Assembly (NCBI GenBank): GCA_034722995.1
Contig: JAYEOL010000067.1
Span: 1 to 34,913 of the forward strand
Length of the DNA stretch: 34,913 nucleotides
Source: Candidatus Cloacimonadota bacterium
GTDB taxonomy: Bacteria; Cloacimonadota; Cloacimonadia; JGIOTU-2
Direction of reading: 5' to 3'
The notes under the pieces were generated by a model that was not told the DNA's origin, made no database searches, and was given only the letters and a program-made list of their open reading frames with translations. A program made the position numbers and the translations under genes. Numbering within the stretch: position 1 is the stretch's first letter; every line of letters begins with the position of its first letter. Below are positions 3,541 through 25,030 of this stretch, in pieces.

Positions 3541-3586
3541 TTGACAATCGTTATCATTTGCTAAAAATTGTCATAAAATTATGACA
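3541..3586 (+). promoter_or_regulatory. 18-bp palindrome TGTCAT-N6-ATGACA over the start of 3581, with TTGACA upstream
   Basis: The perfect inverted repeat TGTCATAAAATTATGACA lies at 3569-3586 and includes the ATG of the downstream gene. A TTGACA at 3541-3546 could be a -35 box, with TAAAAA about 15 bp later as a poor -10 box. There is no Shine-Dalgarno before the ATG, so a leaderless or very short-leader transcript is possible. The palindrome could be an operator. A site with the same arms and spacer length lies at 8052-8069. The promoter call is weak; the palindrome itself is certain. Confidence 0.4.
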
Positions 3587-3925
3587 GTAAATAACTATAG
3601 TTTTGGTAAAATTAATATCAGTGGTAAAGTTTATACCCATGATGTAATTATTATGTCAGATTCAATAAAAAGCAACTGGTGGCGCAGTCAGTCCCATTTG
3701 CTTACTCTTGAGGACATACAAGAAATTATTGATAATAAACCAGACATCTTGATAATTGGGACAGGAAAATTTGGCTTGATGAAAGTAAAAAGAGAAGTTC
3801 TTAATTATTGCAAAAATCATAAAATAAAGTTAATAATAGAGAACACTTCGGAAGCTACTAAAAAATTTAATAGTTTATCTCAATCTAATAATAAAATAAT
3901 CGCAGCATTGCACCTAACATGTTAA
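3581..3925 (+). CDS. Mth938-like (DUF498) domain protein
   Basis: Protein of 114 aa consisting of one Mth938-like domain: YSFGKINISGKVYTHDVIIM at the N-terminus, then SNWWRSQSHLLTLEDIQEII, DILIIGTGKFGLMKV and a C-terminal alternating helix/strand part. The fold is an alpha/beta sandwich whose members include a mitochondrial assembly factor (NDUFAF3) and small stand-alone bacterial proteins; the bacterial function is not established. No ribosome site is visible before the ATG, which lies inside an 18-bp palindrome. Another palindrome, GTAATTTT-G-AAAATTAC (3935-3951), follows the stop. Family assignment is fairly secure, function unknown. Confidence 0.8.
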   Translation: MTVNNYSFGKINISGKVYTHDVIIMSDSIKSNWWRSQSHLLTLEDIQEIIDNKPDILIIGTGKFGLMKVKREVLNYCKNHKIKLIIENTSEATKKFNSLSQSNNKIIAALHLTC

Positions 3926-4208: not shown

Positions 4209-5639
4209 ATGAAAAGAAAAAAGGTTGGCTTAGAAAAGAGAATATTTGTCCGCTTTTTTGTTATAACCTTTATACTTGCAATCGTTTTGCTCATTTCTGA
4301 GTGGTTTATTATAAAATATCAGATTGAACAAGATTATTTGGTTTTCTTGTTGGTATTGTTGGTTGCCACGCTAATTGCGATAATTATTTTAGGCAAAGTG
4401 TTCGGCAGAACCATAATGCAACCCATTAAAAGAGTAAGTGAAAAGATGCAAGCCATTGGTGAAAATCCTCTAAAATATGAGCCAATACCAGAAAGATACA
4501 GCGGTAAACTTGGTGATGTGGTGGAAACATTTAATGCAATGAATATGTCCCTGTCTAAATATAATCGTTCACTTAATGAATACAAAATAATAACTGAGAA
4601 CCTTGATTCAGGAATTTTTTGGATGAACTCTGATTTTAATATTATTTTATGTAATCCGAGTTTTATGCGAATTTTTGAGCTTAAAAATTCTGAGGAAATC
4701 ATTGGAAAGAATTTAAATGAATTTATTAAACTGAATGAAAAAACTATCCAGGATGCAAAGAACGATAGTATCACTTTGCCACAGTTAGAAATAAATCTTC
4801 CTCAGAGGAAAAATTTGCCTGACAAAATAAAGTATGTTATATTAAATATTAGAGCTGTCAAAGATGAACGAAAATTAAAATTAGTTGGAAGCATTACAAA
4901 TATTACTAAAGAGGTAAAAGAGAGAAAAGCTAGACAAGCATTAGAATTAGAACTAATAAAAAGTAATAAATTGGCTGAAATCGGAAGACGAGTTGAGGGC
5001 ATTGTTCATAATATAAACTCTCCTTTAAACTCTATATTAGGGTATGCACAACTAATTAAAAAGGATATTGGTGATAACAAAGATATTGATAAAATCCTGG
5101 AATCCGGAAAAAATATCTCACATTCTGTAAAAATACTCCTAAGAAAAGTAAAACAGGATAATATCTCAATGATGATTCCAATAAACATAAATGAACTTGT
5201 TAAACAAGAACTGGAACTTTGCGACCATAACTTATTTTTTAAACATTATGTCATTTTAGAAACAAATTTTTTTAAAGAGCTTCCAGAGATAAAAGCAGTA
5301 TACAGTGAGATTAGCCAGAGTTTTACAAACATTATAAACAATGCAATTGAATCTCTAAAAAATAGTTTAGAAAAGCTCATCTTTGTCAGAACTTATCAAA
5401 CTAGCGATATGATTGCAATTGAAGTAAAAGATACTGGTGAAGGAATAAAGAATGAGGATTTAGATAAAATATTTGACCCATATTATACTACAAAAGGGCA
5501 AAAGGATGGTGGGGGCTTTGGTTTAGGATTAGCAATAAGCAAAAGTGTGGCGGAAAGATATGGAGGTTATATCAGTGTGAAATCTGAAGTTGGCAAAGGT
5601 AGCACATTTACATTGTTTCTACCAATTAATAATAAATAA
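4209..5639 (+). CDS. membrane sensor histidine kinase (HAMP-PAS-HisKA-HATPase)
   Basis: Sensor kinase of 476 aa. Seen in order: two membrane helices (about residues 12-34 and 43-65) with almost no external loop, a HAMP linker (about 65-118), a PAS domain (about 123-235), a dimerisation/H-box with the phospho-acceptor His267 in GIVHNINSPLNSILG, and an HATPase domain with an N-box (NNAIES, near 376), DTGEGI, and G-box GGGFGLGLAISKS. The H-box with Asn-Ser-Pro-Leu resembles NtrB/PilS-type kinases. The ATG has CAGGAG upstream. The NtrC-type regulator at 6477 follows on the same strand, with only a transposase remnant and repeats between them, so the two are the likely cognate pair. With so little periplasmic sequence it probably senses a membrane or cytoplasmic cue. 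Confidence 0.92.
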   Translation: MKRKKVGLEKRIFVRFFVITFILAIVLLISEWFIIKYQIEQDYLVFLLVLLVATLIAIIILGKVFGRTIMQPIKRVSEKMQAIGENPLKYEPIPERYSGKLGDVVETFNAMNMSLSKYNRSLNEYKIITENLDSGIFWMNSDFNIILCNPSFMRIFELKNSEEIIGKNLNEFIKLNEKTIQDAKNDSITLPQLEINLPQRKNLPDKIKYVILNIRAVKDERKLKLVGSITNITKEVKERKARQALELELIKSNKLAEIGRRVEGIVHNINSPLNSILGYAQLIKKDIGDNKDIDKILESGKNISHSVKILLRKVKQDNISMMIPININELVKQELELCDHNLFFKHYVILETNFFKELPEIKAVYSEISQSFTNIINNAIESLKNSLEKLIFVRTYQTSDMIAIEVKDTGEGIKNEDLDKIFDPYYTTKGQKDGGGFGLGLAISKSVAERYGGYISVKSEVGKGSTFTLFLPINNK

Positions 5640-5803: not shown

Positions 5804-5844
5804 AAAAGACAACCTGATAAATTTGAACCGTTTTAACGGTTTTT
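5804..5844 (+). repeat. 41-bp direct repeat, left copy
   Basis: Identical over 41 bases to 6419-6459. Both copies begin AAAAGACAACCTGATAAATT and contain the inverted repeat AACCGTTTTAACGGTT. The two copies bracket the IS200-like gene. Each copy directly precedes a coding start region: the transposase here, the response regulator on the right. Confidence 0.9.
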
Positions 5845-5861
5845 CAGAAAGGAGACGGAAT

Positions 5862-6305
5862 ATGTCGCATTCCTTAACGAGGATTTGGATACATGCAGTC
5901 TGGAGTACTTAAGATAGATATCCATTTATGAATGAAAAACAGAGATTAAAAATTATACAACATTTAGAAACAAAACTTGAAGATTTAGAATGCGGAGTTA
6001 GAATTATCAATGGGACTAAAGATCATCTACATGCCTTATTTCTCCTAAATCAAAATAAATCTATCAAAGAAATCATAAAAAATGTTAAAGGTGAAACATC
6101 TCATTGGATTAATCAAAATAATTTTTATAAAGTAAAATTTGCATGGCAGATTGGTTATGGAGCATTCTCTGTTAGTGAGTCAATGGTGAAGATTGTTGAA
6201 AATTATATTAGAAATCAAAAAGAACATCATAAAAAAATGTCATTTCAAGAAGAGTGGGAATTATTGTTGAAAAAACATAATATTGTTGCTTCTGGAAACC
6301 ATTAA
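5862..6305 (+). pseudogene. IS200-like Y1/HUH transposase gene with in-frame stop
   Basis: Reading from the ATG at 5862 (with GGAGACGG before it) gives MSHSLTRIWIHAVWST, then TAA at 5910-5912, then DRYPFMNEKQRLKI and an open frame to 6305, all in one frame. The total of about 147 codons equals a normal IS200/REP-associated transposase. Visible: the HUH motif as HLH in GTKDHLHALFLL, the family block WQIGYGAFSVS, and the catalytic-helix Tyr in ENYIRNQKEHH. Relatives usually read STKDRYPF, so the stop looks like AAA or AAG changed to TAA. A restart at the ATG at 5928 would lose the first strand, so activity is unlikely unless the stop is read through. It interrupts a two-component gene pair and is flanked by hairpins. 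Confidence 0.85.
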
Positions 6306-6333
6306 AATGGTTAATAATGAGGTATTATTGTTA

Positions 6334-6414
6334 CCCACGATTAAAATCGTGGGCTTCCCTTCCCAGTGATAAGAACAAATAAATGAGTCAGAAGCCCACA
6401 AATTCATTTGTGGG
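6334..6414. repeat. REP-like hairpin pair downstream of transposase
   Basis: Two perfect 9-bp hairpins occur: CCCACGATTAAAATCGTGGG (6334-6353) followed by GCTTC, and in opposite orientation GAAG followed by CCCACAAATTCATTTGTGGG (6395-6414). Hairpins with GGGCTTC/GAAGCCC tails in head-to-head order are the kind of structure recognised at the ends of IS200-like and REP-associated elements. They probably mark the right end of the element carrying the gene at 5862-6305. Confidence 0.65.
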
Positions 6415-6418
6415 TATA

Positions 6419-6459
6419 AAAAGACAACCTGATAAATTTGAACCGTTTTAACGGTTTTT
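6419..6459 (+). repeat. 41-bp direct repeat, right copy
   Basis: Identical to 5804-5844. It forms the leader of the response regulator gene, with the AACCGTT/AACGGTT hairpin ending about 20 bases before its ATG. IS200-type transposition normally makes no target duplication, so this repeat more likely reflects duplication of a leader or recombination than a target-site copy. Confidence 0.9.
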
Positions 6460-6476: not shown

Positions 6477-7910
6477 ATGGCAAATCAAGTAATACAAACA
6501 GATTTTTTTAAAAGAAATGCCAAGATACTTATTATTGATGATGAGCAGGACACTCTAAATATTTTTCGCCGTCAATTAGAAGATGAATATGAAATAGACA
6601 CAGCTGATTCGGCAGTTTTAGCTATTGAAAAGCTAAAAAAAGAAGTATACCATATAGCAATGACAGATTTGGTGATGCCGGGTGAAGATGGTCTTGAACT
6701 TATGAAAACAATTAAGGAGAAATGGCCCCAGGTTGCTGTAATAGTAATAAGTGGAAAGGCTTCCATTAGTATGGCAGTTGAAGCAATGAAATTAGGGGCA
6801 GAAGAGTTTATTGAAAAACCTGTAGAAGACCTTGACCTACTTAAACTAACGATTGAAAAAATTTTGAAAGCAAGATGGCAATCTGAAGAAATTGAAAGAC
6901 TGCGTCGTATATTATCTCAGGGATTTGATAGAAAAAATATTGTAGGTAATAGCTTTGCAATACAAAAAGTGATGGAAAAAGTAAAAAGAATTGCTCCTCT
7001 TGATGCTACAGTCCTGATAACTGGTGAAACTGGTGTTGGTAAAGAACTATTCGCAGAATTAGTTTATAAAAATAGCAAAAGGAAAGATGAAAAGTTCGTT
7101 ACCGTAAACTGCGGAGGTTTACCTGAAAATCTATTGGAAAGCATTCTGTTCGGACATAAAAAAGGTGCATTTACTGATGCTATTAGAGATAAAATCGGTT
7201 ATTTTCAAGAAGCAGATAAAGGGACTTTATTCTTAGATGAAATTACAGAAACATCTCAAGCATTCCAAATAAAATTACTTCATGCTCTGGAAAAAGGTGT
7301 GATAAGACAGGTTGGAGGAGATAAAGATATTGAAGTTGATGTAAGAATTATCACAGCAACTAATAAGAACATTGAAGAAGAGGTTAAGAATGAAAACTTT
7401 AGAGAAGATTTATATTATAGATTGAATGTTATCAATATAAATATTCCACCTCTTAGAGAAAGGGTTGAAGATATTAAACTGCTTGCAAATGCTTTTGTTA
7501 ATGAATTTGCTGAAAGGTATGATAAAAAGGGTTTACAATTATCTGAACCTGTTATGTCAATCTTACTATCAGGGGAATGGAAAGGAAATATAAGAGAGTT
7601 GAGAAATGCAATGGAACACGCAGTTGCATTGGCTTCTCATAATAAAATTATTCCTGAGGACCTACCTGACCACATCTATCTAAATAAAATTCCTTCAAAA
7701 AATATGTCTGCACAAAATTTTATGCATCTGCCATTTGCTGAAGCTAAAGAGGAGTTTGAGAAATCCTACATTGAAGGATTGATGAAAAACTGTAACGGTG
7801 ATGTTACTAAAGCTGCAAATATTTCCCAGATAAAAAGACAAAATATTTATGATAAATTTAAAAAATACGAGATTGATATTAACAGGTATAGAAAAAATAA
7901 TGATAGTTAA
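6477..7910 (+). CDS. NtrC-family response regulator, sigma-54 activator
   Basis: Regulator of 477 aa with three parts. The receiver domain (about 14-130) has phospho-acceptor Asp64 in MTDLVMPGEDG and switch Lys in IEKPVED. The AAA+ sigma-54 interaction domain (about 145-375) has Walker A GETGVGKE at 183-190, the sigma-54 contact loop GAFTDA at 230-235, Walker B GTLFLDEI at 249-256 and the R-finger region FREDLYYRLNV. A Fis-type helix-turn-helix lies at about 440-470 (GDVTKAANISQIKRQNIYDKF). Complete GAFTDA means it should activate sigma-54 promoters. A consensus sigma-54 promoter with an upstream palindrome occurs about 540 bp downstream, before the pilin-like gene, so a PilR-like role is inferred. 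AAGGAATAAAAA is the ribosome site. Confidence 0.95.
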   Translation: MANQVIQTDFFKRNAKILIIDDEQDTLNIFRRQLEDEYEIDTADSAVLAIEKLKKEVYHIAMTDLVMPGEDGLELMKTIKEKWPQVAVIVISGKASISMAVEAMKLGAEEFIEKPVEDLDLLKLTIEKILKARWQSEEIERLRRILSQGFDRKNIVGNSFAIQKVMEKVKRIAPLDATVLITGETGVGKELFAELVYKNSKRKDEKFVTVNCGGLPENLLESILFGHKKGAFTDAIRDKIGYFQEADKGTLFLDEITETSQAFQIKLLHALEKGVIRQVGGDKDIEVDVRIITATNKNIEEEVKNENFREDLYYRLNVININIPPLRERVEDIKLLANAFVNEFAERYDKKGLQLSEPVMSILLSGEWKGNIRELRNAMEHAVALASHNKIIPEDLPDHIYLNKIPSKNMSAQNFMHLPFAEAKEEFEKSYIEGLMKNCNGDVTKAANISQIKRQNIYDKFKKYEIDINRYRKNNDS

Positions 7911-8339
7911 ATAAAATCAGTGTTGTAGAACGACCTTCCAAGGTCGTTGGTTTACTCCGTTTCGGAGCTGGCGGTTCGTTTTCGCACTCCGAATAGAGCA
8001 TCTTAGAAACAGAGGACTTAATATTAAGTTTCTATTCTCTATGGATAGTATTGTCATAAATACATGACACACATTTTTGCTATGTAATTATTTTATGACA
8101 GATTATCATCCTAAAAGTCAGGATTATTTAAATTTCTTTTATCCCGTTCTGGAGAACGGAAACATTGCTGGTTCTCCCGAAGGCTTTCGGGACAAATCTG
8201 AACCAGCATAGTACTCTTTGTAAAGTAAATATGGAGTCCTTATCTACAGAGAAAGTTATAAAAGACTTTACAGGGCTGTCACGAACTCCCGATATACCTG
8301 TACCGTGAAATCTCTTTTTTCTATTTCACTGGGATCGGG
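7911..8339. repeat. repeat-rich intergenic region between regulator and pilin promoter
   Basis: No gene is recognised. Palindromes: AACGACCTTCCAAGGTCGTT (7929-7948); TGTCATAAATACATGACA (8052-8069); CCGTTCTGGAGAACGG (8144-8159); and TGCTGGTTC (8166-8174) paired with GAACCAGCA (8200-8208) around CCCGAAGGCTTTCGGG. The segment 8170-8211 is repeated with four base changes at 9539-9580. The first palindrome, close after the regulator stop, may help end that transcript. Confidence 0.6.
8052..8069. promoter_or_regulatory. candidate operator TGTCAT-N6-ATGACA, second copy
   Basis: TGTCATAAATACATGACA is an 18-bp inverted repeat with the same 6-bp arms and 6-bp spacer as 3569-3586. Its right half plus the next base (ACATGACAC) recurs at 8369-8377, in the right arm of the palindrome next to the pilin promoter. 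It may be a distal binding site for a regulator of the pilin gene. Binding protein unknown. Confidence 0.35.
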
Positions 8340-8356
8340 ATGACAGAAATTTTTTA

Positions 8357-8374
8357 TCATGTTATAGAACATGA
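8357..8374. promoter_or_regulatory. candidate enhancer (UAS) for the sigma-54 promoter
   Basis: TCATGTTATAGAACATGA is a perfect inverted repeat with 7-bp arms and a 4-bp spacer. Its centre lies about 87 bp upstream of the -12 element, i.e. near -100 from the expected transcription start, where enhancer-binding proteins of the NtrC/PilR type usually bind. The gene for such a protein ends at 7910. Binding is inferred from symmetry and spacing only. Confidence 0.5.
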
Positions 8375-8439
8375 CACCCGAAAAAATAAAATTTATCTTG
8401 ACAGAAAAAAGTTTTTCTTAGAAAAGTTACTTAAAACTT

Positions 8440-8455
8440 TGGCACAAAAGTTGCA
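8440..8455 (+). promoter_or_regulatory. sigma-54 (-24/-12) promoter of pilin-like gene
   Basis: TGGCACAAAAGTTGCA matches the sigma-54 consensus TGGCAC-N5-TTGCW at every defined position, with the GG and GC doublets correctly spaced. The start of transcription is expected about 12 bases after the GC, near 8465, giving a leader of about 110 bases before the ATG at 8573. It is the only full match noticed in the window. Confidence 0.88.
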
Positions 8456-8532
8456 TAATATATTTATGTTTGTAATAGATGTGAAAATTTCCCAAAATAA
8501 TCCCGTTTTTTACGGGAAAAAAAAATAATATA

Positions 8533-8567
8533 GTCCTCCTACGCTGAAGCTACGGAGGACAAGGAGG
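8533..8567 (+). promoter_or_regulatory. 5'-UTR hairpin and very strong Shine-Dalgarno of pilin-like gene
   Basis: GTCCTCC (8533-8539) can pair with GGAGGAC (8554-8560), directly next to the ribosome site AAGGAGG (8561-8567), which sits five bases before the ATG. The left arm TCCTCCT can equally pair with AGGAGGA of the ribosome site (8562-8568). Two exclusive pairings, one hiding and one freeing the ribosome site, are therefore possible. Confidence 0.45.
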
Positions 8568-8572
8568 ATAAC

Positions 8573-9037
8573 ATGGGAATGCAACAAATACTGCTCATTG
8601 TATTGAGCGTAATTATCGTTGGTGTGGCTATTGCCGTTGGTATCACTATGTTCAAAAGCCAAGCTGTAACTTCAAATCGTCAAGCGGTTATTACTGATCT
8701 AAATTCTTTTGCTGGTCAAGCATTAGGATTCTACAAGACTCCTATAGACTTTGGTGGCGGTGGATATACCTGGACAGGTGATGGAACTGACGATCAAAAT
8801 CTTGGTGCATGGTTAGGATATGGTCATGATGGAACAACTGGAGATACTTTAACAACTGAGAATGGAACCTATAAACTAATAATCGACGCTGATAAACTTA
8901 CAATAACAGGAAATGGAAAAGAAATAGGTGATAAGGCAGGCTATCCTGCTACCGCCTTTGGTGCAGATGGTTGTGTCGCAGCACAAGTTGTAGTAACAGG
9001 AAAAACTGGCGCAATAAAATTTACCAGATTAAACTGA
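8573..9037 (+). CDS. small pilin-like protein, probable major subunit
   Basis: Protein of 154 aa beginning MGMQQILLIVLSVIIVGVAI: a two-residue leader ending in Gly, then a long hydrophobic N-terminal helix (about 3-27), then a soluble Gly/Thr-rich domain of alternating strands. This is the shape of a type IV pilin or pseudopilin, but the leader is minimal and mature position 5 is not Glu. Cleavage after Gly2 is an inference. It has its own sigma-54 promoter, a perfect ribosome site and a strong terminator right after the gene. That implies abundant, separately controlled expression and fits a major subunit of the pilus-like machine encoded from 10514. Sequence identity to a named pilin family is not recognised; an uncleaved membrane-anchored protein is the alternative. 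Confidence 0.72.
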   Translation: MGMQQILLIVLSVIIVGVAIAVGITMFKSQAVTSNRQAVITDLNSFAGQALGFYKTPIDFGGGGYTWTGDGTDDQNLGAWLGYGHDGTTGDTLTTENGTYKLIIDADKLTITGNGKEIGDKAGYPATAFGADGCVAAQVVVTGKTGAIKFTRLN

Positions 9038-9106: not shown

Positions 9107-9779
9107 CATTATCCTATAGCAAAGAACATTTTGTCAGGGTATGGACCCTGACAACCAGAGTTTCGTCAGGGTTTGGACTCTGACAACCAGAGTTCACTTC
9201 ACGGCTGTCATGGATTCATCTCTGCCCGCCAGGGCTTTTGGCAGGCGGGCTTCGTCCCGATTTCATCGGGACTACGCTTGTCCGCTGTAATACTATAGAA
9301 GGCGGGAAGAATGGACCATTCCATGACAGTTTTCAACCAGTGTTAGGTAGGCTTGGGTTTTCATCCTTTATCCCGATTTGTGGCACATTGTGGTTAAATT
9401 TTTGTCAGGGTATGGACCCTGACAACCAGAGTTTCGTCAGGGCGTGGACCCTGCCAACCAATGTTTCCATTGCTGGTTCATCCGCCAGTCATTGCTGGTT
9501 CCCCGATATTCATCGGGGTTACTTGAACCAAACATTTTGGTTCTCCCAAAGGCTTTCGGGACAAATTTAAACCAGCATAGTTTTCCCGGCCGGGTATCCC
9601 CAATTAAATTGGGGACGGGTTCATCCCGAACCTGAACGAAGCTGAACGTATCGGGAGACTGTGACAGATTTTACGGAAGACAGTTTTTGTCATAGTATGG
9701 ACCATTACAACCAGGGTTCACTTCACGGCTGTCATGGACCATTCCATGACAGAATGGACCATAACAACCAGAGTATAAA
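9107..9779. repeat. cluster of GTCAGGG/CCCTGAC and CCCGAT palindromes
   Basis: About 670 bases without a credible gene, built of short palindromic units. GTCAGGGTATGGACCCTGAC occurs at 9133-9152 and 9404-9423. Variants are at 9165 (GTCAGGGTTTGGACTCTGAC), 9436 and 9689, plus GTCATGGACCATTCCATGAC at 9731-9750. Most are followed by AACCAGAG. Also present are GCCCGCC/GGCGGGC (9224-9250), GTCCCGAT/ATCGGGAC (9254-9272), and the 42-base copy at 9539-9580 of the segment at 8170-8211. Units vary in spacing and sequence, unlike CRISPR. GC content is higher than in the neighbouring genes. Confidence 0.75.
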
Positions 9780-9782
9780 CTA

Positions 9783-10085
9783 ATGAATGCTATAATTAAA
9801 AATAATATAATTGACATTCATAATCTTTGCAAGAAATATAAAGTTAAAAATTTATATGTTTTTGGTTCTGTTTGTTCTGAAAAATTTGATGATAAAAGTG
9901 ATATTGATTTCCTAATTTCATTTAAAGATATCTCCGTTGAAGAATATTCAGATAATTATTTTGCTTTACACGAATTATTTGAGAATTTATTTACAAGAAA
10001 AATAGATTTGATAACTGAAAATTCACTTTCCAATCCATATTTTATAAAGTTTATGGAAAAGACTAAAACTTTAATTTATGAATGA
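9783..10085 (+). CDS. mntA: MntA-type nucleotidyltransferase antitoxin
   Basis: Minimal nucleotidyltransferase of 100 aa. Motif: G28-S29 followed by Asp40 and Asp42 in GSVCSEKFDDKSDIDFLI, with the third acidic residue Asp75 in RKIDLIT. All catalytic positions are present. Family knowledge: MntA antitoxins inactivate the partner HepT by transferring AMP to a Tyr in its active site. The stop overlaps the start of the HepT gene by 8 bp (10078-10085), the usual tight coupling. The pair sits alone within repeats between the pilin-like gene and pilC, so it looks like an inserted accessory module. Confidence 0.88.
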   Translation: MNAIIKNNIIDIHNLCKKYKVKNLYVFGSVCSEKFDDKSDIDFLISFKDISVEEYSDNYFALHELFENLFTRKIDLITENSLSNPYFIKFMEKTKTLIYE

Positions 10086-10434
10086 TAAAATAAAAAAATA
10101 TCTTTTTGATATTAAGGTTTCAATAAATTCAATATACGAGTATCTTGGAGAAGAAAAAGATTTCACAAAATATCAACAGAACAAATTATTGAGAAGAGGA
10201 ATTGAACGGGAATTTGAAATTATTGGAGAAGCAATGAATGGGATATTAAAAGAAGATAAAACCATTCAAATAGAAAGTGCCAAGAAAATTATAGGATTAA
10301 GAAATTGGGTTATTCATGGATATGATAAAGTTGATGATGCAATAATTTGGGGCATTATCGTAAAACATTTACCAAAATTGAAAATTGAGATTGATAATTT
10401 ATTAGATTTAGATAATGAAAATGATAAAAGATAG
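10078..10434 (+). CDS. hepT: HepT-type (DUF86) toxin ribonuclease
   Basis: HEPN-fold protein of 118 aa. The RX4HXY active-site motif is intact: Arg75, His80 and Tyr82 in RNWVIHGYD. The helix before it (RRGIEREFEIIGEAMN) is typical of the family. Known members are RNases neutralised by MntA-mediated AMPylation of the motif Tyr. The short C-terminus ends in a helix rich in Asp and Lys. The gene overlaps mntA by 8 bp and has no ribosome site of its own. Since the motif is complete, the toxin is probably functional. Confidence 0.88.
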   Translation: MNDKIKKYLFDIKVSINSIYEYLGEEKDFTKYQQNKLLRRGIEREFEIIGEAMNGILKEDKTIQIESAKKIIGLRNWVIHGYDKVDDAIIWGIIVKHLPKLKIEIDNLLDLDNENDKR

Positions 10435-10513: not shown

Positions 10514-11866
10514 ATGCAAAAAGAATTTCGCTATCAAGGAGTGTCTTTAAATAATAAACCTATTCAAGGTTTAGTATTAGCACATAACAAATCTAAAGCA
10601 AAGCAATTAATAAAACAAATAGCTACAAAACATAGAATAAGAATAAATTCTATACTTCGCAAAAAGACCTTTATTTATACAGTAAAACTTCCTACAGGTA
10701 AAAAATTAAAAGGAAAGCAAGCCGCATATACAAAGCAAGAAGTAGAAAGGGCATTACTAAGGATTGGATATAGGGACGCAAAAATTCAACCAGTTTTGAT
10801 TGATTTTCATCCAAAGCCTTCTAAACAAAGCATTATGATGTTTATCAATCTTAGCTCGTTTCTACTTAAAGAAAAGATGGCTTATGATAAAATTCTTCGT
10901 ATGTTAGCAGAAGAAGAATCCAATTCAACATTAAAAGAAACATTAAAAAAAGTTGAAGGTCAATTAAAAGCAGGTAAAGAGGGCACAGAGGTTTTTTCAC
11001 GCTATTCTGATGTCTTTGGGAAATTCCCTGCTTATATGCTCGGTCTTGCAACCAAAAGTGGTAATATGAGTGAGGTTTATGCTGCTACTTCCAAATTTAT
11101 GGAAAGGGACCATGAGTATAGAAAAAGTTTAAAGCAGGCAATACTCGCGCCAATGATTACAGTTGTGGCTACAATACTTGCTGTTGGATATTTTGTGGTC
11201 TCAATATTTCCCGCAACTGCTAAGATTTTTGTTGAGCACGGAATAAAAGTTCCACCAATGACTGCTTTTACATTAAAGCTGAGTGATTATTTAGGTGCTA
11301 ATTGGTGGTGGATGTGTCTTATAATTGCAATTTTTTCAATCGCAATTTTTATGTGGTGGAAAACTCCAAAAGGAAGGGTATGGAGGGACAAATTTTTAAT
11401 TAAATTACCAATTATTGGGCATCTGTTACATAAATCAAGTATTGAGATATTTTTTAGAGTTTTCTCTGCTATCTATTCCGGGGCAGAAGCTAATATAGAA
11501 GCCCTAACATCTTCTGCTGAAGCATGTAGAAATGCTTATATAGAAAAAGGAGTTAAAAAGACTACTATTCCACTTATGTTAACAGAAGGTATGTCATTAG
11601 TACCGGCATTGGAAGAAGCAAATGTATTTAATAAAACAACTCTAAGTAGATTAAGAACCGGGGCAGAAACTGGTAATGTGCTACAATCTGCTCGGCAAAT
11701 TTGCTCATTCTATGAAAAAGAAACCACATATAAAATGAATAATGTCATTCAATCGGTTCAGTCTTTAATTGCACTTTTTATTGGCGTTGTCATTTCATTA
11801 TTAACTATTGTTTCTGCAGAGATTGCACTTGTTTCTCCAGAAATGCCTGGTATGGTTGGAATGTAA
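10514..11866 (+). CDS. pilC: PilC/GspF-like inner-membrane platform protein
   Basis: Polytopic protein of 450 aa of the T2SSF family, the membrane platform on which the PilB and PilT motors act. An N-terminal cytoplasmic part (about 1-100) precedes two T2SSF halves. The first has FINLSSFLLKEKMAYDKILRML and GLATKSGNMSEVYAA; the second has FFRVFSAIYSGAEANIEALT and RLRTGAETGNVLQSARQI. Membrane helices lie near 207-230, 263-281 and 417-440. The double-repeat pattern and order are family-typical. The gene starts the long machinery operon and is followed 13 bp later by pilB. Start: the ATG after a weak AAGTAATCAAAA. Assignment between pilus and type II secretion rests on the PilT gene downstream. 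Confidence 0.9.
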   Translation: MQKEFRYQGVSLNNKPIQGLVLAHNKSKAKQLIKQIATKHRIRINSILRKKTFIYTVKLPTGKKLKGKQAAYTKQEVERALLRIGYRDAKIQPVLIDFHPKPSKQSIMMFINLSSFLLKEKMAYDKILRMLAEEESNSTLKETLKKVEGQLKAGKEGTEVFSRYSDVFGKFPAYMLGLATKSGNMSEVYAATSKFMERDHEYRKSLKQAILAPMITVVATILAVGYFVVSIFPATAKIFVEHGIKVPPMTAFTLKLSDYLGANWWWMCLIIAIFSIAIFMWWKTPKGRVWRDKFLIKLPIIGHLLHKSSIEIFFRVFSAIYSGAEANIEALTSSAEACRNAYIEKGVKKTTIPLMLTEGMSLVPALEEANVFNKTTLSRLRTGAETGNVLQSARQICSFYEKETTYKMNNVIQSVQSLIALFIGVVISLLTIVSAEIALVSPEMPGMVGM

Positions 11867-11879
11867 ATTAAAGGAAACA

Positions 11880-13664
11880 ATGATAGGAAGATCAAGATTA
11901 GGAAAATTATTAGTTGAGAAAGAAATAATTGATAAAGATACGCTTGATAAAGCACTTATGATTCAGGCTGATGAGGACTCATCTAATCCTCGCCGATTAG
12001 AGGAAATATTAACCTCAGACCTAAAAATAGACCACGATACAATTTATAGTCTGCTTGCCGACCTTTATGCATTCCGCACAATTGATGTAGACCTGGAAAA
12101 ATTAGACCAAAATCAGAAAAAGCGTACAAAAGAAATACTTTCCAGGTTTCCAGAAGACTTCAAAAAGCAACTGTTATATAATAAAATTTTACCATATAGA
12201 ATATCTTACGGCAGAAAAAATACATTAATAGTTTTATCCGCAGATCCAACAAACAAAATCGTAGAAAAAATCCCTTTAAATTCTGAATTCAAAAAATATG
12301 AAGTGGTTTTTTGTCGTCTTAAAATTATAGAAGAACTTATTGAAATCATAGCTCCTCAGAAGAATGAATTTTTAGAACTTCTTGAAGAAGCAGGCGAACA
12401 GATAGAAGAAGTAGGAGAAGTTGGAAAAGTAACAGGCGTTGATGAATATGCATTAGATGAAGAGATAAATAAAAGTCTTTTGGTGAATTTATTTGAAGCT
12501 GGCTTGGTTGAAGCTGTACGACAAGGAGCAAGTGACATACACATTATCCCATATCAACGTTCAAGTGTGGATTTCTTTTTCAGGATTGATGGAAGACTTC
12601 ATCGCTGGCATAGGCAGGATAATACTTCTCCAGAAGCTATAGCAGCAGTTGCTAAAGACCGCTCTACTGGTGTTGACAGATTTGAAAGAGATACTGCACA
12701 GGATGGCTTTGCACAGCGTCTTGTTGATGGGCATCTGATTAGATTTCGTGTTTCAATCTTACCTATTATATCCGCAGAATATGAAAGAAGATTTGAAAGC
12801 GTGGTCGTAAGAGTAATAGACGATAGAAATGTAATAACAGATTTAGAAAAGTTGGGACTTCAAAAGCAAGCTGAGAAGGATTTTGTTAAAGCCATAAATA
12901 CTTCCAAAGGTATTGTTTTACTTACTGGACCAACTGGTAGTGGAAAAAGCACAACCTTAATGGCTGCACTTTATCATGTGATAGACCCTTCAAAAAATGT
13001 ACTTACCTGCGAAGACCCTGTAGAATATGTAATTAAAGGGGCAAGACAGCTAAAGATTGGACATAAACTTAGCTTTGAAAATGCTATCCGCTCTATCCTC
13101 AGACACGACCCTGATATTGTAATGGTTGGTGAAATAAGAGATAAAATTACTGCTGATGTTGCAGTTAAACTTGCAAATACAGGTCATCTAACATTTTCTA
13201 CACTTCATACTAATGATGCACCAAGCGCAATTTCACGATTATATAAAATGGGTATAGAACCCTTTCTCCTTGCTTATGCAATAAATATTATAGTTGCACA
13301 AAGATTAGTAAGAAAATTATGCCCGTACTGCAGGAAACCATTAGCAAAAGAAAAATATCAGGCTGCACTTGAATTAGGCCTAACTGAAGAGGATTTAAAA
13401 TCCGGCAAGATATACGAAGCAGGAAAAGGCTGTAAGAAATGCACTGAAGGATATAAAGGAAGAGTAAATATTTGTGAAGCCCTATACTTCTCACATGAAG
13501 TAAGAAAAGCTATTGTTGAATCCGGAGAAGAAATTGATGAAGCGCTCATTAGAAACATTGCTGAAAAACAAGGGATGTTATCTCTTAGGGACTCAGGGTT
13601 AGATAGAATAAGAAATGGGCTTACTACTATTTCTGAAGTGGCTTATGCAACAACAGAGGAATAA
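11880..13664 (+). CDS. pilB: PilB/GspE-like assembly ATPase with MshEN domain
   Basis: Hexameric secretion ATPase of 594 aa, powering pilus extension. The ATG at 11880 (ribosome site AAAGGAAAC) is chosen over an upstream frame extending into pilC. The N-terminal region SRLGKLLVEKEIIDKDTLDK followed by ALMIQ follows the MshEN pattern (RLGxxL..L..AL..Q) known to bind cyclic di-GMP in relatives. Catalytic core: Walker A GPTGSGKST at 350-358, Asp box CEDPVEY, Walker B MVGEIRD with Glu418, His box TLHTNDA. A tetra-Cys zinc site: Cys481/Cys484 and Cys518/Cys521. All active residues are present. The lower-motif acidic stretch near residue 170 (EEAGEQIEEVGEVG) is an unusual insert. It is followed 3 bp later by a pseudopilin-like gene. 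Confidence 0.95.
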   Translation: MIGRSRLGKLLVEKEIIDKDTLDKALMIQADEDSSNPRRLEEILTSDLKIDHDTIYSLLADLYAFRTIDVDLEKLDQNQKKRTKEILSRFPEDFKKQLLYNKILPYRISYGRKNTLIVLSADPTNKIVEKIPLNSEFKKYEVVFCRLKIIEELIEIIAPQKNEFLELLEEAGEQIEEVGEVGKVTGVDEYALDEEINKSLLVNLFEAGLVEAVRQGASDIHIIPYQRSSVDFFFRIDGRLHRWHRQDNTSPEAIAAVAKDRSTGVDRFERDTAQDGFAQRLVDGHLIRFRVSILPIISAEYERRFESVVVRVIDDRNVITDLEKLGLQKQAEKDFVKAINTSKGIVLLTGPTGSGKSTTLMAALYHVIDPSKNVLTCEDPVEYVIKGARQLKIGHKLSFENAIRSILRHDPDIVMVGEIRDKITADVAVKLANTGHLTFSTLHTNDAPSAISRLYKMGIEPFLLAYAINIIVAQRLVRKLCPYCRKPLAKEKYQAALELGLTEEDLKSGKIYEAGKGCKKCTEGYKGRVNICEALYFSHEVRKAIVESGEEIDEALIRNIAEKQGMLSLRDSGLDRIRNGLTTISEVAYATTEE

Positions 13665-16961: not shown

Positions 16962-16991
16962 ATTAATAATAGTATATTGGAAAAGGAAAAA

Positions 16992-17897
16992 ATGGATAAA
17001 TCACAATTTCTTGAAACAGAAAAAAGCATGTTCCATTGGTGGTCAAAAATCCGCTGGTTTATGGTAATAATCCTTTTTGCAATAGGTATTATTCGTGTTC
17101 AGCAATCTCCACAAACCTTCCCAATTATTATCTTTATTGCTGCCTTTTTAGGAATATGTGTTTTAAATCTTCTCTTCCATCTACAGATTATTAAAACTAA
17201 TAATATCTTTGCAACAGTTCAAATTGTTTTAGATATTGTTTTCTCTACTTTAATTGTGCATCTGACTGGTGGAATTGAAAGCTCTTTTGTATGGATATAC
17301 CTGATAGCAGTTATTACCGCAAGTTTAGCAATAGAAAAAGCAGGTGGTTTTATATCTGCTCTGATTGGTAGTATGTCTCTTTTAGCCCTAATTCTTCTTT
17401 ATAATTTTAAATGGCTTTTGCCAATTAATGGCTCGTCTTTTAATTACGATGTTTCTTTGCAAACTATATTTTTAATTTCCTATACTGGTCTTTTTACTGC
17501 CATAGCCTTTATTGCGAATTTTATTAGTGATATGGCAAAAAAACTATCTTTTAACTCCTTAAAAGTCAATGAAAAATTGAAGGATAAAGAAGACCAATTA
17601 TTGGAGAAGCAAAAAATAATTATAGAAGATAAGAAAAAAATCGCTAACTACCAAGAAGTTGTCCAAACTGCAGCCAATATTGCCGAGATAGACCATGATA
17701 TAAATAATCCTCTGAGTGTAATCTCCCTGTCATTAAGTAGAGTCAAAAAAGCTGCTGATGAATATGATGACGAAAAACTTTTTAAGTCAAGCAATCAGAT
17801 GACCGAAGCCATCAATAAAATAAATGGTATATTAACAAGGTTGCAAGACTTAAAAAAATTAGAATTGATTAAAGCGGAAAGAAAAAAACAGGTTTAA
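16992..17897 (+). CDS. histidine-kinase-like protein with DHp but no ATPase domain
   Basis: Protein of 301 aa. The ATG at 16992 is chosen (AAAGGAAAAA before it) over a TTG at 16977. It has five or six membrane helices between about residues 15 and 185 (for example MVIILFAIGIIRV and ALIGSMSLLALILLYNF), then a coiled coil rich in Lys/Glu, then an H-box with His235 in AEIDHDINNPLSVISLSLSR and a second DHp helix ending at 301. The HATPase domain (N-, D- and G-boxes) is absent, and the next gene begins 5 bp after the stop with no leftover kinase sequence. It therefore cannot autophosphorylate alone. It may be a phosphotransfer or receptor partner for the following receiver protein, phosphorylated by another kinase. 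Confidence 0.82.
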   Translation: MDKSQFLETEKSMFHWWSKIRWFMVIILFAIGIIRVQQSPQTFPIIIFIAAFLGICVLNLLFHLQIIKTNNIFATVQIVLDIVFSTLIVHLTGGIESSFVWIYLIAVITASLAIEKAGGFISALIGSMSLLALILLYNFKWLLPINGSSFNYDVSLQTIFLISYTGLFTAIAFIANFISDMAKKLSFNSLKVNEKLKDKEDQLLEKQKIIIEDKKKIANYQEVVQTAANIAEIDHDINNPLSVISLSLSRVKKAADEYDDEKLFKSSNQMTEAINKINGILTRLQDLKKLELIKAERKKQV

Positions 17898-17901
17898 TAC
17901 T

Positions 17902-18756
17902 ATGAAAAAACATATTTTAGTTGTGGATGATGAACAAACTATACGAGAACTTTGTAAAGAGTTTCTTGAAGAAGAGGGATATAAAGTAACACTTGCAGTT
18001 GATGGACAGGATGCTCTTGATAAAATGGAATATGATGACTATGACCTTTTCCTCGTTGATATGGTTATGCCTCGTATAGATGGACTTGAACTAATGAAGA
18101 GGATTAAAAAGAAACAACCATTAGCTGTTATTGTTATTACAACAGGATTTTCCAGCATAGAGGGCGCAGTAAAGGCTGTGCATGCTGGAGCTTTTCAATA
18201 TCTTTCTAAACCTATTAATGCTGAAGAACTTATTGAAGTTGTAAAAAAAGGCTTACAATACGCCAAAGATTTATACGGTCCACTTCAACAGGCTTTTGAA
18301 CCAGGTGCTGAAGTTATGCAAAAGGCAGAACCTCTTATGTTACATGGATTCACACCAGAAGAAAAAGTTGACTTTTTAGCACTGGGACGTATTCATAAAT
18401 ATGATGTCAGTGAATATATTCCGATTGGTGATAAAAAGTCAGGTTCAATCATTTTGGTTGAAAGTGGCGACATATCAGTCTGGCTTAGTAATACAACTGT
18501 AGATTATCTAAGAAAGGGAGATACCTGGGGAGAAGAAAGCTTTATATTAGCTGGCTCTGTATTTACTAAACTTCGAGCAGAGACTGCTGTCAAAGTTAGA
18601 CATTTTGATAGAAAAAGGATGTTAGATTTCTTTGCATATAAAGGGGAAAAATTATTAAAAAGATTTATGATTAATCTTATAAATTGTACATTTTCCAAAT
18701 GGCGCAAATCTATTCAAAGAATTGTTATGCTGAAACTTGTCACCGGAGAAAAATGA
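17902..18756 (+). CDS. response regulator with degenerate cyclic-nucleotide-binding-like domain
   Basis: Protein of 284 aa. The receiver domain at about 1-120 has the acidic pair in VVDDEQ, phospho-acceptor Asp53 in LVDMVMPRIDG, and switch Lys in YLSKPIN. Residues about 150-270 read like a cNMP-binding/CAP barrel (IILVESGDISVWLSN, then LRKGDTWGEESFILAG, then TAVKVRHFDRKRMLDFF). The Arg-Ala of the nucleotide-binding cassette is not seen (SVFTKLRAET instead), so cAMP/cGMP binding is doubtful. No helix-turn-helix is recognisable; the basic C-terminus (FSKWRKSIQRIVM) is helical. Coupled to the DHp-only protein and followed by pilT, so it probably controls pilus function by protein contact rather than by transcription. 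Confidence 0.85.
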   Translation: MKKHILVVDDEQTIRELCKEFLEEEGYKVTLAVDGQDALDKMEYDDYDLFLVDMVMPRIDGLELMKRIKKKQPLAVIVITTGFSSIEGAVKAVHAGAFQYLSKPINAEELIEVVKKGLQYAKDLYGPLQQAFEPGAEVMQKAEPLMLHGFTPEEKVDFLALGRIHKYDVSEYIPIGDKKSGSIILVESGDISVWLSNTTVDYLRKGDTWGEESFILAGSVFTKLRAETAVKVRHFDRKRMLDFFAYKGEKLLKRFMINLINCTFSKWRKSIQRIVMLKLVTGEK

Positions 18757-18910: not shown

Positions 18911-20128
18911 ATGAGCCTGTCTTTTACACCTGAAATGTTAGTAGGATTACCAGAATATTTAATTGGTACAAGTAGATTCCAGAACATTAACAAAATTATC
19001 ACTTATAATGCAACCTGGAGAAACGAAGCTTACAACAACCTAAAAAAATTACTTAAGCATATGCGAGAAATAAATGCCTCTGATATGGATTTCGGCGGAC
19101 CAGGAGCAAATAGACAAATCTGGTATAGAGTCTATGGGAAAAAATCTCCATATCAAGATATGCCTTCGTACATTAATGATGAAGTTACCGCTATTTTATT
19201 AAGCATCCTATCTGACGAACAGAAAATAACACTTTTTAAAAATAAAAATGTAGACCTTTCTGTAGGAATGGTATTAGAAGAGGGGGAAGAACCCAGCCGT
19301 TTTCGTAGCGATATCTATTATGAAAGTAATGTTTTAGTAGCAAACTTTAGACGCATCAACCAAGAATTATTTACAATACAATCTTTAAACTTTCCCGAAC
19401 CAATTATCAAAAGGTTAGACCTCCAATATGAAAAATCTGGTCTAATTTTAGTCACCGGAATCACAGGGTCAGGAAAAAGTTGTACATTAGATTCTATTAT
19501 AGATATGAACAATCACAATAATCACTCTCATATTGTAATTATTGGAAATCCAATTGAATATATCCACCAATCAGATAAATGTATTATCAGACATAGGGAA
19601 GTTGGCGAAGATGTATTAAACTTTAGAGAGGGAACAATACAAGCATTAAGACAGGACCCGGATATAATTGTTGTTGGAGAGATGCGAGACCCGGAAACAA
19701 TTGCTACAGTTCTTGAAGCCACTGATAGCGGTCATAAGTGTTTTACTACCCTGCACACAAGTTCTGCGGTTGATAGTATGCATAGAATTATTGCTGAATT
19801 TCCTCCAAGAGAGCAAGATAGAATAAGATTGAGATTGGCAGATACATTGAAAGTGATTATCTCTCAAAAATTAGTTCCAAATAAGCAAGGCAAGCTAACC
19901 TTAGCAAAAGAGATTCTTTCTGTAGATGCATCAGTGCGCGCTGCGATAAGAAATAAAAATATCAACGAAATTTATCAGATGATTACTGAAGGTAAAAGAA
20001 AAGGTATGATAGCCCTTGAGCAAGACCTATTTAATCTATGTAAAAACAATATAATAACAAGAGAAACAGCTATAAACTTTTCAAATAGCAGAAAAAGAAT
20101 GCAGCAGTTGTTAACTTACTCAAAATAA
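18911..20128 (+). CDS. pilT: PilT-like retraction ATPase with altered Asp box
   Basis: ATPase of 405 aa, somewhat longer than typical PilT (about 345-370) because of an extended N-terminus. Seen: Walker A GITGSGKS at 183-190, Walker B VGEMRDPET with Glu257, His box TLHTSSAVDS, AIRNKNINEIYQMITEG and the C-terminal block KRKGMIALEQDLFNLCKNN, all PilT-type. The Asp box, normally EDPIE, reads GNPIEY at 212-217: both acidic residues are replaced by Gly212-Asn213, although the flanking HIVII and IHQSDK stretches are conserved. The Walker A also has Cys after the Ser. Retraction kinetics may differ, or the protein may have a regulatory role. Located in the operon between the regulators and pilM. Confidence 0.9.
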   Translation: MSLSFTPEMLVGLPEYLIGTSRFQNINKIITYNATWRNEAYNNLKKLLKHMREINASDMDFGGPGANRQIWYRVYGKKSPYQDMPSYINDEVTAILLSILSDEQKITLFKNKNVDLSVGMVLEEGEEPSRFRSDIYYESNVLVANFRRINQELFTIQSLNFPEPIIKRLDLQYEKSGLILVTGITGSGKSCTLDSIIDMNNHNNHSHIVIIGNPIEYIHQSDKCIIRHREVGEDVLNFREGTIQALRQDPDIIVVGEMRDPETIATVLEATDSGHKCFTTLHTSSAVDSMHRIIAEFPPREQDRIRLRLADTLKVIISQKLVPNKQGKLTLAKEILSVDASVRAAIRNKNINEIYQMITEGKRKGMIALEQDLFNLCKNNIITRETAINFSNSRKRMQQLLTYSK

Positions 20129-22961: not shown

Positions 22962-23834
22962 ATGCCACATACAGTTAGAAATACAATTGTTTTAGTTGTT
23001 TTATTGTTAATTGTAATAATTGGCATTATATTAGCTAATGCAAATTATGTTAAAAGATTAGAAAAATTAAAAAAATCAAACAAAGAAAACTCAGAGATGC
23101 AGGAAAGACTCAGAAAGGAAAATCCAGATTTGGAAAATGAAGAAAAAGTTATGGAATCTCTTGATGATATGAAAAAACAAGTTCTTGAAAATAGTAAACT
23201 TATACTCAAAGAAGACACTCCAACTCTTACATACCAATATTTAGTTGATATTGCGGATAATTTCTGCCCTGATGTAAGTTTTAATTTCCAGATTTCAAAA
23301 TCTGGAAAGGTTAAAGAATTTTCTTTTAATACATACACGATTTCTGGTGATGCCAACATAAAATCTCTTTATTTTTTTGTATTTCAAATTGAGTATCAAT
23401 CCCCTCTTTATACAATTGAATCTATTAAAATTGCTGAACAATCTGTAGCTAAAGCTGATACAGTAAGCTTTACAATTACCCTGAATGCATATTATAATGA
23501 GGATGGGACTGAACTACAAAACATACTATTTAGAAATTTTAGGTTTACAAATCTTAGATATAATCCATTTTATTCCAGAATCCATACCCCTATATCTGAT
23601 GAATATGAGCTTAAATTTCTAAATATATATACATCAACGATAATTGGATTATCTCCGTATAAAGCTTTTTTGCGTGATGATAAAGGAAGGATTCATACCT
23701 TAAGGACCGGTGAAAAGGTGGCTTATGGATATTTAGATCACATTAATTGGTATAAACAGGCAGCAGTTTTTACGATAAATAGAATTGGTATTCCTGAAGA
23801 GAAAATAATATATATGAATGAGGATAAATTATGA
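22962..23834 (+). CDS. PilO-like protein with PilP-like C-terminus
   Basis: Bitopic protein of 290 aa: membrane helix at about 7-26, a coiled coil rich in Lys/Glu (about 28-80), then a PilO-like ferredoxin fold (about 85-165: PTLTYQYLVDIADNF, then FNTYTISGDANIKSLYFFVF), and a C-terminal part (about 200-290) with GLSPYKAFLRDDKGRIHTLR, TGEKVAYGYLDHINW and VFTINRIG, which has the strand pattern of PilP/GspC HR domains. Its place between pilM-N and the secretin is where pilO and pilP normally stand, and no other pilP candidate exists here. A fusion of both functions is inferred; the PilO part is the firmer assignment. Overlaps the secretin ATG by 4 bp (ATGA). Confidence 0.7.
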   Translation: MPHTVRNTIVLVVLLLIVIIGIILANANYVKRLEKLKKSNKENSEMQERLRKENPDLENEEKVMESLDDMKKQVLENSKLILKEDTPTLTYQYLVDIADNFCPDVSFNFQISKSGKVKEFSFNTYTISGDANIKSLYFFVFQIEYQSPLYTIESIKIAEQSVAKADTVSFTITLNAYYNEDGTELQNILFRNFRFTNLRYNPFYSRIHTPISDEYELKFLNIYTSTIIGLSPYKAFLRDDKGRIHTLRTGEKVAYGYLDHINWYKQAAVFTINRIGIPEEKIIYMNEDKL

Positions 23835-25030
23835 AAAAGACACTGATAATTTTGATCATATTTTTTGTGTATTTTAACTTATTCGCTCAACTCCAGACAG
23901 GTAAAAATTATAGTGAAAAAGAATTAATAACTATCTCTCAAACTCTACCTATTCCAGATGCTTTGAAAACTCTTGAAGTTATGTCTCAACAGTTTGAAGG
24001 TAAAAAAATCATTAATATGAGTAGCGTAACAAAACCAATTGGAATTCCAATTAAAAAATTATATTGGAAGGAAGCCCTCAATATTATTATTAGTTATCAT
24101 AATCTCGTACTTGAGGAACTACCAGGTGCATACTTAATTAAAGATTTAATTGTAGAGAAAGAAGTTCCTAAAGAAGAAAAACCAGAAATTTCAATTGATA
24201 CCAAACAGGTAAAAATCAGTGCAATACTATTTAAAGCTGATAGATCATTCCTAAACAGTATTGGCATTGACTGGTCAACACTATTCAACAATAAAGTAGT
24301 TGCTTCAATTGATTTCAAAGGTGGAAGTATGGTTGGTTCTGAACTATTGCAGGCTACAGGTTCTACAAGACTTGAATCAGGTAATATAACTGTTGATATT
24401 AATACCCTTTTACGAATAATTGAAAGTAATCAAAAGGGAACAGTTATCGCAAGACCATCTCTTTGTGTTTTATCTGAAAAAACTGGAAAGATTCAAGTTG
24501 GTGATGATTTCTCTGTCAAACAAGTAGATGAAGCCGGAAATATCACCGATAAATTCTTTAGCACCGGTGTTATTATGGATGTTACACCAACCGTTATAGA
24601 AGAGGATGGAAAAGAGGCTATTCATCTGCATACTAGCGTTGAAAAGAGCTCAGCAGTTCCCGGGGAAATTAGCACGATTATCCATACAAGTCAATCAGCA
24701 ACCGATGTTTTATTATTTGATGGCGAGGAAACCGTGATGGGTGGCCTATATGATACAGAGGTTACAATAGTTCGTACTGGAATTCCACTTCTAAAAGATT
24801 TACCATGGTGGGTCTTTGGAATACGTTATCTTACAGGATATAATAAGAAAGAGAAAAATATTCGCGAAATGATTATCATATTAAAGGCTGAAATCGCAAA
24901 ACCTCTTGATAAGAGAAAAAAAGAATTTATCTCTACTAAAGAAAAGATAGAAAAATTTAGAAAAGCTTCAACTAATATTGATACACTATTTATTGAGAAT
25001 AAAAAAGGAAAAAATGAAAATAAAAAATAA
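23831..25030 (+). CDS. pilQ: short PilQ/GspD-type secretin
   Basis: Outer-membrane channel protein of 399 aa with a signal peptide (MKKTLIILIIFFVYFNLFAQ). Residues about 40-110 look like a secretin/TonB short N-terminal domain (VTKPIGIPIKKLYWKEALNI, followed by IISYHNL). The C-terminal secretin core follows at about 120-355: KQVKISAILFKAD, GTVIARPSLCVLSEKTGKIQ, GVIMDVTPTV and the gate/closing motif GIPLLKDLPWWVFGIRY. It is short: usual PilQ proteins carry more N-domains (AMIN, N0, N1), so only one remains. A lysine-rich tail of about 45 residues follows the core. Overlaps the pilO-like gene by 4 bp and the lipoprotein gene by 17 bp. Confidence 0.9.
   Translation: MKKTLIILIIFFVYFNLFAQLQTGKNYSEKELITISQTLPIPDALKTLEVMSQQFEGKKIINMSSVTKPIGIPIKKLYWKEALNIIISYHNLVLEELPGAYLIKDLIVEKEVPKEEKPEISIDTKQVKISAILFKADRSFLNSIGIDWSTLFNNKVVASIDFKGGSMVGSELLQATGSTRLESGNITVDINTLLRIIESNQKGTVIARPSLCVLSEKTGKIQVGDDFSVKQVDEAGNITDKFFSTGVIMDVTPTVIEEDGKEAIHLHTSVEKSSAVPGEISTIIHTSQSATDVLLFDGEETVMGGLYDTEVTIVRTGIPLLKDLPWWVFGIRYLTGYNKKEKNIREMIIILKAEIAKPLDKRKKEFISTKEKIEKFRKASTNIDTLFIENKKGKNENKK

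Follow-up and report, generated by a model that had tools for sequence, protein, structure and literature searches.

Enhancers of the NtrC and NifA type are tandem imperfect TGT...ACA palindromes that act at a distance on the σ54 RNA polymerase, the site recognized by NifA being TGT-N10-ACA. The closest described pilus system is PilS-PilR, known from Pseudomonas aeruginosa and also from Myxococcus, Geobacter and Kingella, in which an NtrC-type regulator activates pilA from a σ54 promoter; the P. aeruginosa PilS protein has six membrane segments (PMC6058289). In Myxococcus xanthus, type IV pili are under a further NtrC-type regulator, NmpR, whose effect is exerted by way of pilR rather than on pilA directly (PMC6211767).

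The locus considered here lies in a stretch of 34,913 nucleotides from a Candidatus Cloacimonadota bacterium, which was analysed as a whole and is referred to as the window. It contains a pilin-like gene in the company of several type IV pilus genes, as follows:

8573–9037, + strand: pilin-like gene (MGMQQILLIVLSVIIVGVAIAVG...), with homologues in 29 of the 41 genomes searched, near PilC/PilB
10514–11866, + strand: PilC/GspF-like inner-membrane protein (Pfam T2SSF; NCBIfam PilC models below cut-off)
11808–13664, + strand: PilB-like extension ATPase (Pfam T2SSE; NCBIfam type_IV_pilB at 413.8 bits, below cut-off)
18911–20128, + strand: PilT-like ATPase (Pfam T2SSE; NCBIfam pilT_fam, 314 of 319 bits)
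23831–25030, + strand: secretin, PilQ-like (Pfam Secretin; NCBIfam PilQ below cut-off)

With a prepilin peptidase (peptidase_A24) encoded on contig C73, the type IV pilus set of PilB, PilC, PilT, secretin and prepilin peptidase is present, and the type IX secretion tail domains found in the window are in keeping with an FCB-type genome. The product of 8573–9037 is safest called “pilin-like”, because this protein, which starts MG-MQQIL, has no Glu5 and gave a negative result in the test for the N-terminal cleavage/methylation motif, and because no Pfam pilin model or other family matches it over cut-off. A profile search of solved structures with the same protein returned no pilin, and a single-sequence model, of low confidence (pLDDT 45), predicts a long N-terminal helix followed by strands. 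It is on this helix-plus-strands model, the gene context and the conserved N-terminus that the pilin-like identity rests. Between the pilin-like gene and PilC, positions 9783–10434 hold genes for an MntA-like nucleotidyltransferase and a HepT-like protein, which together probably form a toxin-antitoxin module. One congener, G001, has expanded tandem pilin arrays with about 15 homologues (L088 10747–14462 and 18550–19969; more on L089, L092, L093, L101 and L102), and several of these array pilins carry their own candidate enhancer pair and σ54 promoter, some copies of the control region being decayed.

Two features stand directly upstream of the pilin-like gene:

8440–8455, + strand: σ54 (-24/-12) promoter TGGCACAAAAGTTGCA, with a predicted transcription start at about 8465–8467
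8534–8571, + strand: hairpin in the 5' leader (GTCCTCC...GGAGGAC), preceding the GGAGG ribosome-binding site of the pilin-like gene

The sequence-only reading had claimed a full σ54 consensus at this gene and had proposed a comparison of the region in relatives, and as far as the promoter goes both turned out in its favour. The promoter matches the consensus TGGCACNNNNNTTGCW with 0 mismatches, its GG and GC dinucleotides standing 10 bp apart in a TGGCAC-N5-TTGCW context, and no other exact match occurs in the 1.89 Mb genome, where 92 further matches have 1 mismatch each. Shuffles of the window are expected to yield 0 exact matches, and show no excess of matches when up to 2 mismatches are allowed. 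The reversed pattern gave 7 matches against 93 at up to 1 mismatch, a comparison that is kept out of the statistics because the dinucleotides of the reversed pattern differ. The σ factor itself is available, since rpoN is present on contig C21 of the same genome (Sigma54_DBD, E=1.4e-46). In 21 of the 22 genomes examined, counting that of the window, the pilin homologue is preceded by a site of the -24/-12 type; only G026 departs, with a truncated pilin gene at a contig end. These sites stand 56–174 bp upstream of the pilin gene, and up to 585 bp in some same-genus copies. Promoters were scored by how well they match the consensus, with simple weights; in most loci the score of the real site was reached by 0–5 of 200 shuffled upstream regions, and at the weaker promoter of G014 by 14 of 200. 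Conservation is by type and not letter for letter, as the -12 element reads TTGT or TTGA in several genomes of genus g4. The inner copies of the G001 tandem arrays have no -24/-12 site, as would be expected for an operon. Judged from these comparisons, the -24/-12 element upstream of the pilin-like gene is real. The leader hairpin recurs right before the pilin start codons in G001, inner array copies included, and nowhere else in the loci scanned; its 5' arm could pair with the ribosome-binding site.

The presumed activator and its presumed partner are encoded upstream, with an insertion between them:

4209–5639, + strand: sensor histidine kinase, presumed partner (2 predicted membrane segments, HAMP, PAS, HisKA, HATPase)
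5805–6459, + strand: IS200-type insertion between kinase and regulator (Pfam Y1_Tnp; transposase-like ORF 5928–6305)
6477–7910, + strand: NtrC-type response regulator, presumed activator (Pfam Response_reg, Sigma54_activat, HTH_8)

The regulator consists of a receiver, an AAA+ domain with GAFTDA and a Fis-type HTH, which bears out the earlier identification of an NtrC-type regulator with that motif. A search of contigs with an alignment of this regulator found distant NtrC-type proteins only, at most 45% identical. Its orthologues adjoin the pilin gene in relatives, where the kinase in turn adjoins the regulator: the order kinase-regulator-pilin-PilC-PilB is found in G006, G009, G014 and G038, and the congeners G001 and G002 have kinase, regulator, PilC and PilB in order with pilin copies between. 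Linkage of regulator and pilin gene is mostly absent in family f3 of the class. Direct repeats of 40 bp, identical in sequence and starting at 5805 and 6420, flank the insertion, and no such gap between kinase and regulator was seen in the relatives' loci; the repeat includes a terminator-like hairpin (AACCGTTTTAACGGTTTTT). With promoter and gene order conserved and rpoN present, the idea of a PilSR-like circuit is well supported. Its description as “self-contained” stands only in part: the regulator does adjoin the pilin-like gene, but rpoN lies on another contig and the IS200-type insertion parts the kinase from the regulator. Farther along the window, 16977–17897 encodes a membrane protein of the 6TM_PilS type, conserved in relatives, that contains HisKA but no ATPase domain; it adjoins a response regulator (17902–18756) with a weak match to a cyclic-nucleotide-binding domain.

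Where the activator would bind is a separate matter, and here the earlier proposal of an enhancer just upstream of the promoter is not supported. The palindrome on which it was based exists, and belongs to the following elements:

8357–8374, no strand assigned: palindrome TCATGTTATAGAACATGA, a diverged copy of the dispersed repeat TCANGGTNTGGACCNTGACA
8276–8384, + strand: composite dispersed element CTGTCACGAACTCCCGATAT...ATCGGGATGACAGAAATTT...CATGACACCCGA, separating the promoter from the candidate activator sites

The sequence is a near-perfect palindrome (16 of 18 positions), its centre about 88 bp upstream of the GC of the -12 element, a usual distance for an enhancer, and 0 occurrences are expected in window shuffles. 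It is non-random because it is a member of a dispersed repeat family: the consensus TCANGGTNTGGACCNTGACA, with up to 2 mismatches, has 21 matches in the own genome versus 0 for the reversed control, and seven related copies, 8347–8384 among them, occur within 1.4 kb of the window. Copies of the family stand at unrelated intergenic places, as is characteristic of a dispersed repeat, and the stretch 8287–8342 has further copies in the own genome. The congener G001 has a palindrome copy with the same flanks on its contig C117, of which the fetched 2.9 kb revealed no pilin or other pilus-locus genes, and the palindrome block is missing from its eight aligned promoters as well as from G002. Among G001, G002 and G012, only G012 has the block in the promoter, in a form nearer to that of the family. 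Although the G012 palindrome is kept there with paired changes, as would suit a bound site, such changes follow from the repeat family itself. Membership in this family and absence from the congeners' promoters speak against 8357–8374 as the enhancer, and this candidate was rejected; the palindrome is probably no enhancer, and we regard its being bound as one by the regulator as highly improbable. A palindromic repeat cluster (GTCAGGGTATGGACCCTGACAACCAGAGT), of a family dispersed in the genome, occupies 9124–9774, downstream of the pilin-like gene. An Rfam search of the window gave no matches.

Better candidates emerge from the promoters of relatives:

8052–8069, + strand: candidate upstream activator site 1, TGTCATAAATACATGACA, an exact pattern match, kept at relatives' pilin promoters
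8083–8100, + strand: candidate upstream activator site 2, TGTAATTATTTTATGACA, its centre 31 bp from that of site 1
3569–3586, + strand: third site of the activator type, TGTCATAAAATTATGACA, which overlaps with the beginning of the DUF498 gene and is kept in two congeners
3581–3925, + strand: DUF498/DUF598 protein (Pfam PF04430), the first gene of the DUF498-kinase-regulator group

The paired sites are 18-bp imperfect palindromes of the TGTCATANNNNTATGACA type, and the aligned G001 promoters have in common two palindromic sites, TGTCATANNNNTATGACA and TGTAATNNTTNTATGACA, that are 31 bp apart. Exact matches to TGTNATNNNTNTATGACA on both strands of the whole genome number three, all of them in the window: the two sites of the pair and the third site. 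When all spacings from 18 to 59 were scored in 17 promoters, the best pair spacing was exactly 31 bp in 15 of them, the remaining two giving 30 and 33; omission of the four promoters that had been found with the 31-bp pattern leaves 11 of 13. The distance from the pair to the -24 element is 349 bp in the window and varies between 108 and 371 bp across the promoters with a 31-bp pair. A search for such pairs in 125 genomes of the class found matches in 19 genomes, versus 2 hits of the reversed control pattern. Six new locations with enough flanking sequence (G092, G093, two in G099, G096 and G100) are followed within 600 bp by a σ54 site and the start of a pilin gene; contig ends interrupt two further ones, and a few matches of low score are probably due to chance. 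The 31-bp pair thereby reaches pilin promoters of other genera and of a second family of the class; in family f3, tandem sites were not found with the pair pattern, and the promoter is kept. A block at about 8232–8270 (ATATGGAGTC...AGACTT), at first taken as the enhancer from the G001 alignment, was set aside, because it is common to G001 and G012 and the paired sites extend to other genera and another family. The best-supported candidate for the enhancer is therefore the pair at 8052–8100, about 350 bp upstream of the promoter.

All 18 bp of the third site agree between the window, G001 and G002, and in both congeners the DUF498 gene lies directly upstream of the kinase gene, so that the site may possibly serve autoregulation of the regulator's own gene group. 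Its overlap with a start codon is, on the other hand, the usual place for repression, and a reading of the paired sites as targets of a repressor or nucleoid protein, with a promoter activated without any fixed enhancer, could appeal to this overlap and to the variable distance between sites and promoter. Variable distance combined with fixed inter-site spacing is nevertheless how an enhancer behaves, and the pair marks σ54 pilin promoters across genera and families; such another purpose is accordingly given very little credence, and the pair continues to be treated here as the candidate enhancer.

A different question is which activator would use it. The genome encodes two other complete NtrC-type σ54 activator domains (contigs C22 and C35), and a σ54-dependent pilin-like gene whose paired sites are bound by one of these proteins is conceivable. 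We consider this unlikely, as it is the regulator 6477–7910 that neighbours the pilin gene in many genomes, the third exact site stands at this regulator's own gene group, and in G012 the DNA-binding domain of the regulator has been exchanged along with the sites. The G012 regulator (L090 4110–5543) shows a sharp change of ancestry around codon 390, which coincides with the DNA-binding domain boundary: codons 1–390 show mostly 82–97% DNA identity to G006, a member of its own genus, and 62–79% to the window, whereas codons 391–477, which make up the DNA-binding domain, are 91–93% identical to the window and 53–68% to G006. Downstream of it follow window-like sites, promoter, intergenic DNA and pilin start, with 83% identity over 8340–8523. 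Exchange of the domain together with the sites ties the regulator to them, although the chimaera could be an assembly artefact. The regulators of G006 and G011 have the recognition region SGIKRPNLYEKFNKH and sites ending in TATTACA; those of the window group have SQIKRQNIYDKFKKY and sites ending in TATGACA. This correspondence between helix and site is imperfect, since G014 combines SGIKRPNLYEKFNKH with site ends of the TATGAC type. DNA-binding domain, enhancer pair, promoter and pilin start might form a cassette that recombines between genera while the host keeps the receiver and ATPase halves, a proposal that we put forward tentatively and hold to be slightly less probable than its negation; if true, natural domain swapping, in which the output half of the regulator is replaced, is how the pilin switch evolves.

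Taken as a whole, the sequence comparisons make it very likely that the pilin-like gene is σ54-dependent and activated by the regulator 6477–7910, with 4209–5639 as its kinase, through the pair at 8052–8100 and looping, that the third site is autoregulatory, and that the palindrome is an inserted repeat. The kinase would phosphorylate the regulator, oligomers of which would bind 8052–8069 and 8083–8100 on the same face of the helix, 31 bp being about three turns. The roughly 350 bp between sites and promoter would loop, the AAA+ domain of the regulator would open the RpoN-polymerase complex, and the gene at 8573–9037 would be transcribed from 8440–8455. Through the single site over the start of the DUF498-kinase-regulator group, the regulator would adjust its own level, and repeat elements holding the palindrome 8357–8374 would have been inserted between enhancer and promoter. 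What the sequences themselves establish is the promoter, the three sites, rpoN, the conservation of spacing and gene order, and that the palindrome is a repeat; it is phosphorylation, binding, looping and autoregulation, the sign of the last included, that we infer here. Against this explanation it may be said that the two other complete activator domains could contribute, that about 350 bp is long for an enhancer, though relatives' pairs lie within the range given above, and that family f3 keeps the promoter with its regulator mostly unlinked and no tandem sites found with the pattern.

The locus would extend PilSR-like σ54 control of a pilin gene to an apparently FCB-type lineage, and it offers a precise candidate enhancer, made of two 18-bp sites with a constant 31 bp between their centres. 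Thanks to the natural chimaera, and to recognition regions that differ between regulator groups, the recognition of sites by the regulator can be tested directly, and the palindrome illustrates how a mobile repeat of palindromic form can be mistaken for an enhancer.

When compared with the tandem imperfect TGT...ACA palindromes of NtrC and NifA enhancers, the sites of this locus are of the same kind, but differ from those of NifA in being TGT-N12-ACA and in having a pilin gene as target. As in PilS-PilR, an NtrC-type regulator adjoins pilus genes and the pilin gene has a σ54 promoter with sites, here candidate ones, upstream (PMC6058289). In contrast to PilS, the kinase 4209–5639 combines 2 predicted membrane segments with HAMP and PAS and does not show the six helices; the 18-bp paired sites at 31-bp spacing are unlike the elements that are cited for PilR, TGT-N11-AGA and GTCT; and, unlike the pilin of PilSR systems, the pilin-like protein is without the usual N-terminal methylation motif by Pfam. 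NmpR is likewise an NtrC-like regulator with a pilus locus and its own operon as targets (PMC6211767), whereas the candidate sites found here are at the pilin promoter itself. The comparisons lend good support to a circuit that is ordinary in kind, a PilSR-like σ54 control, and unusually clear in its anatomy, in which the candidate enhancer has been relocated.
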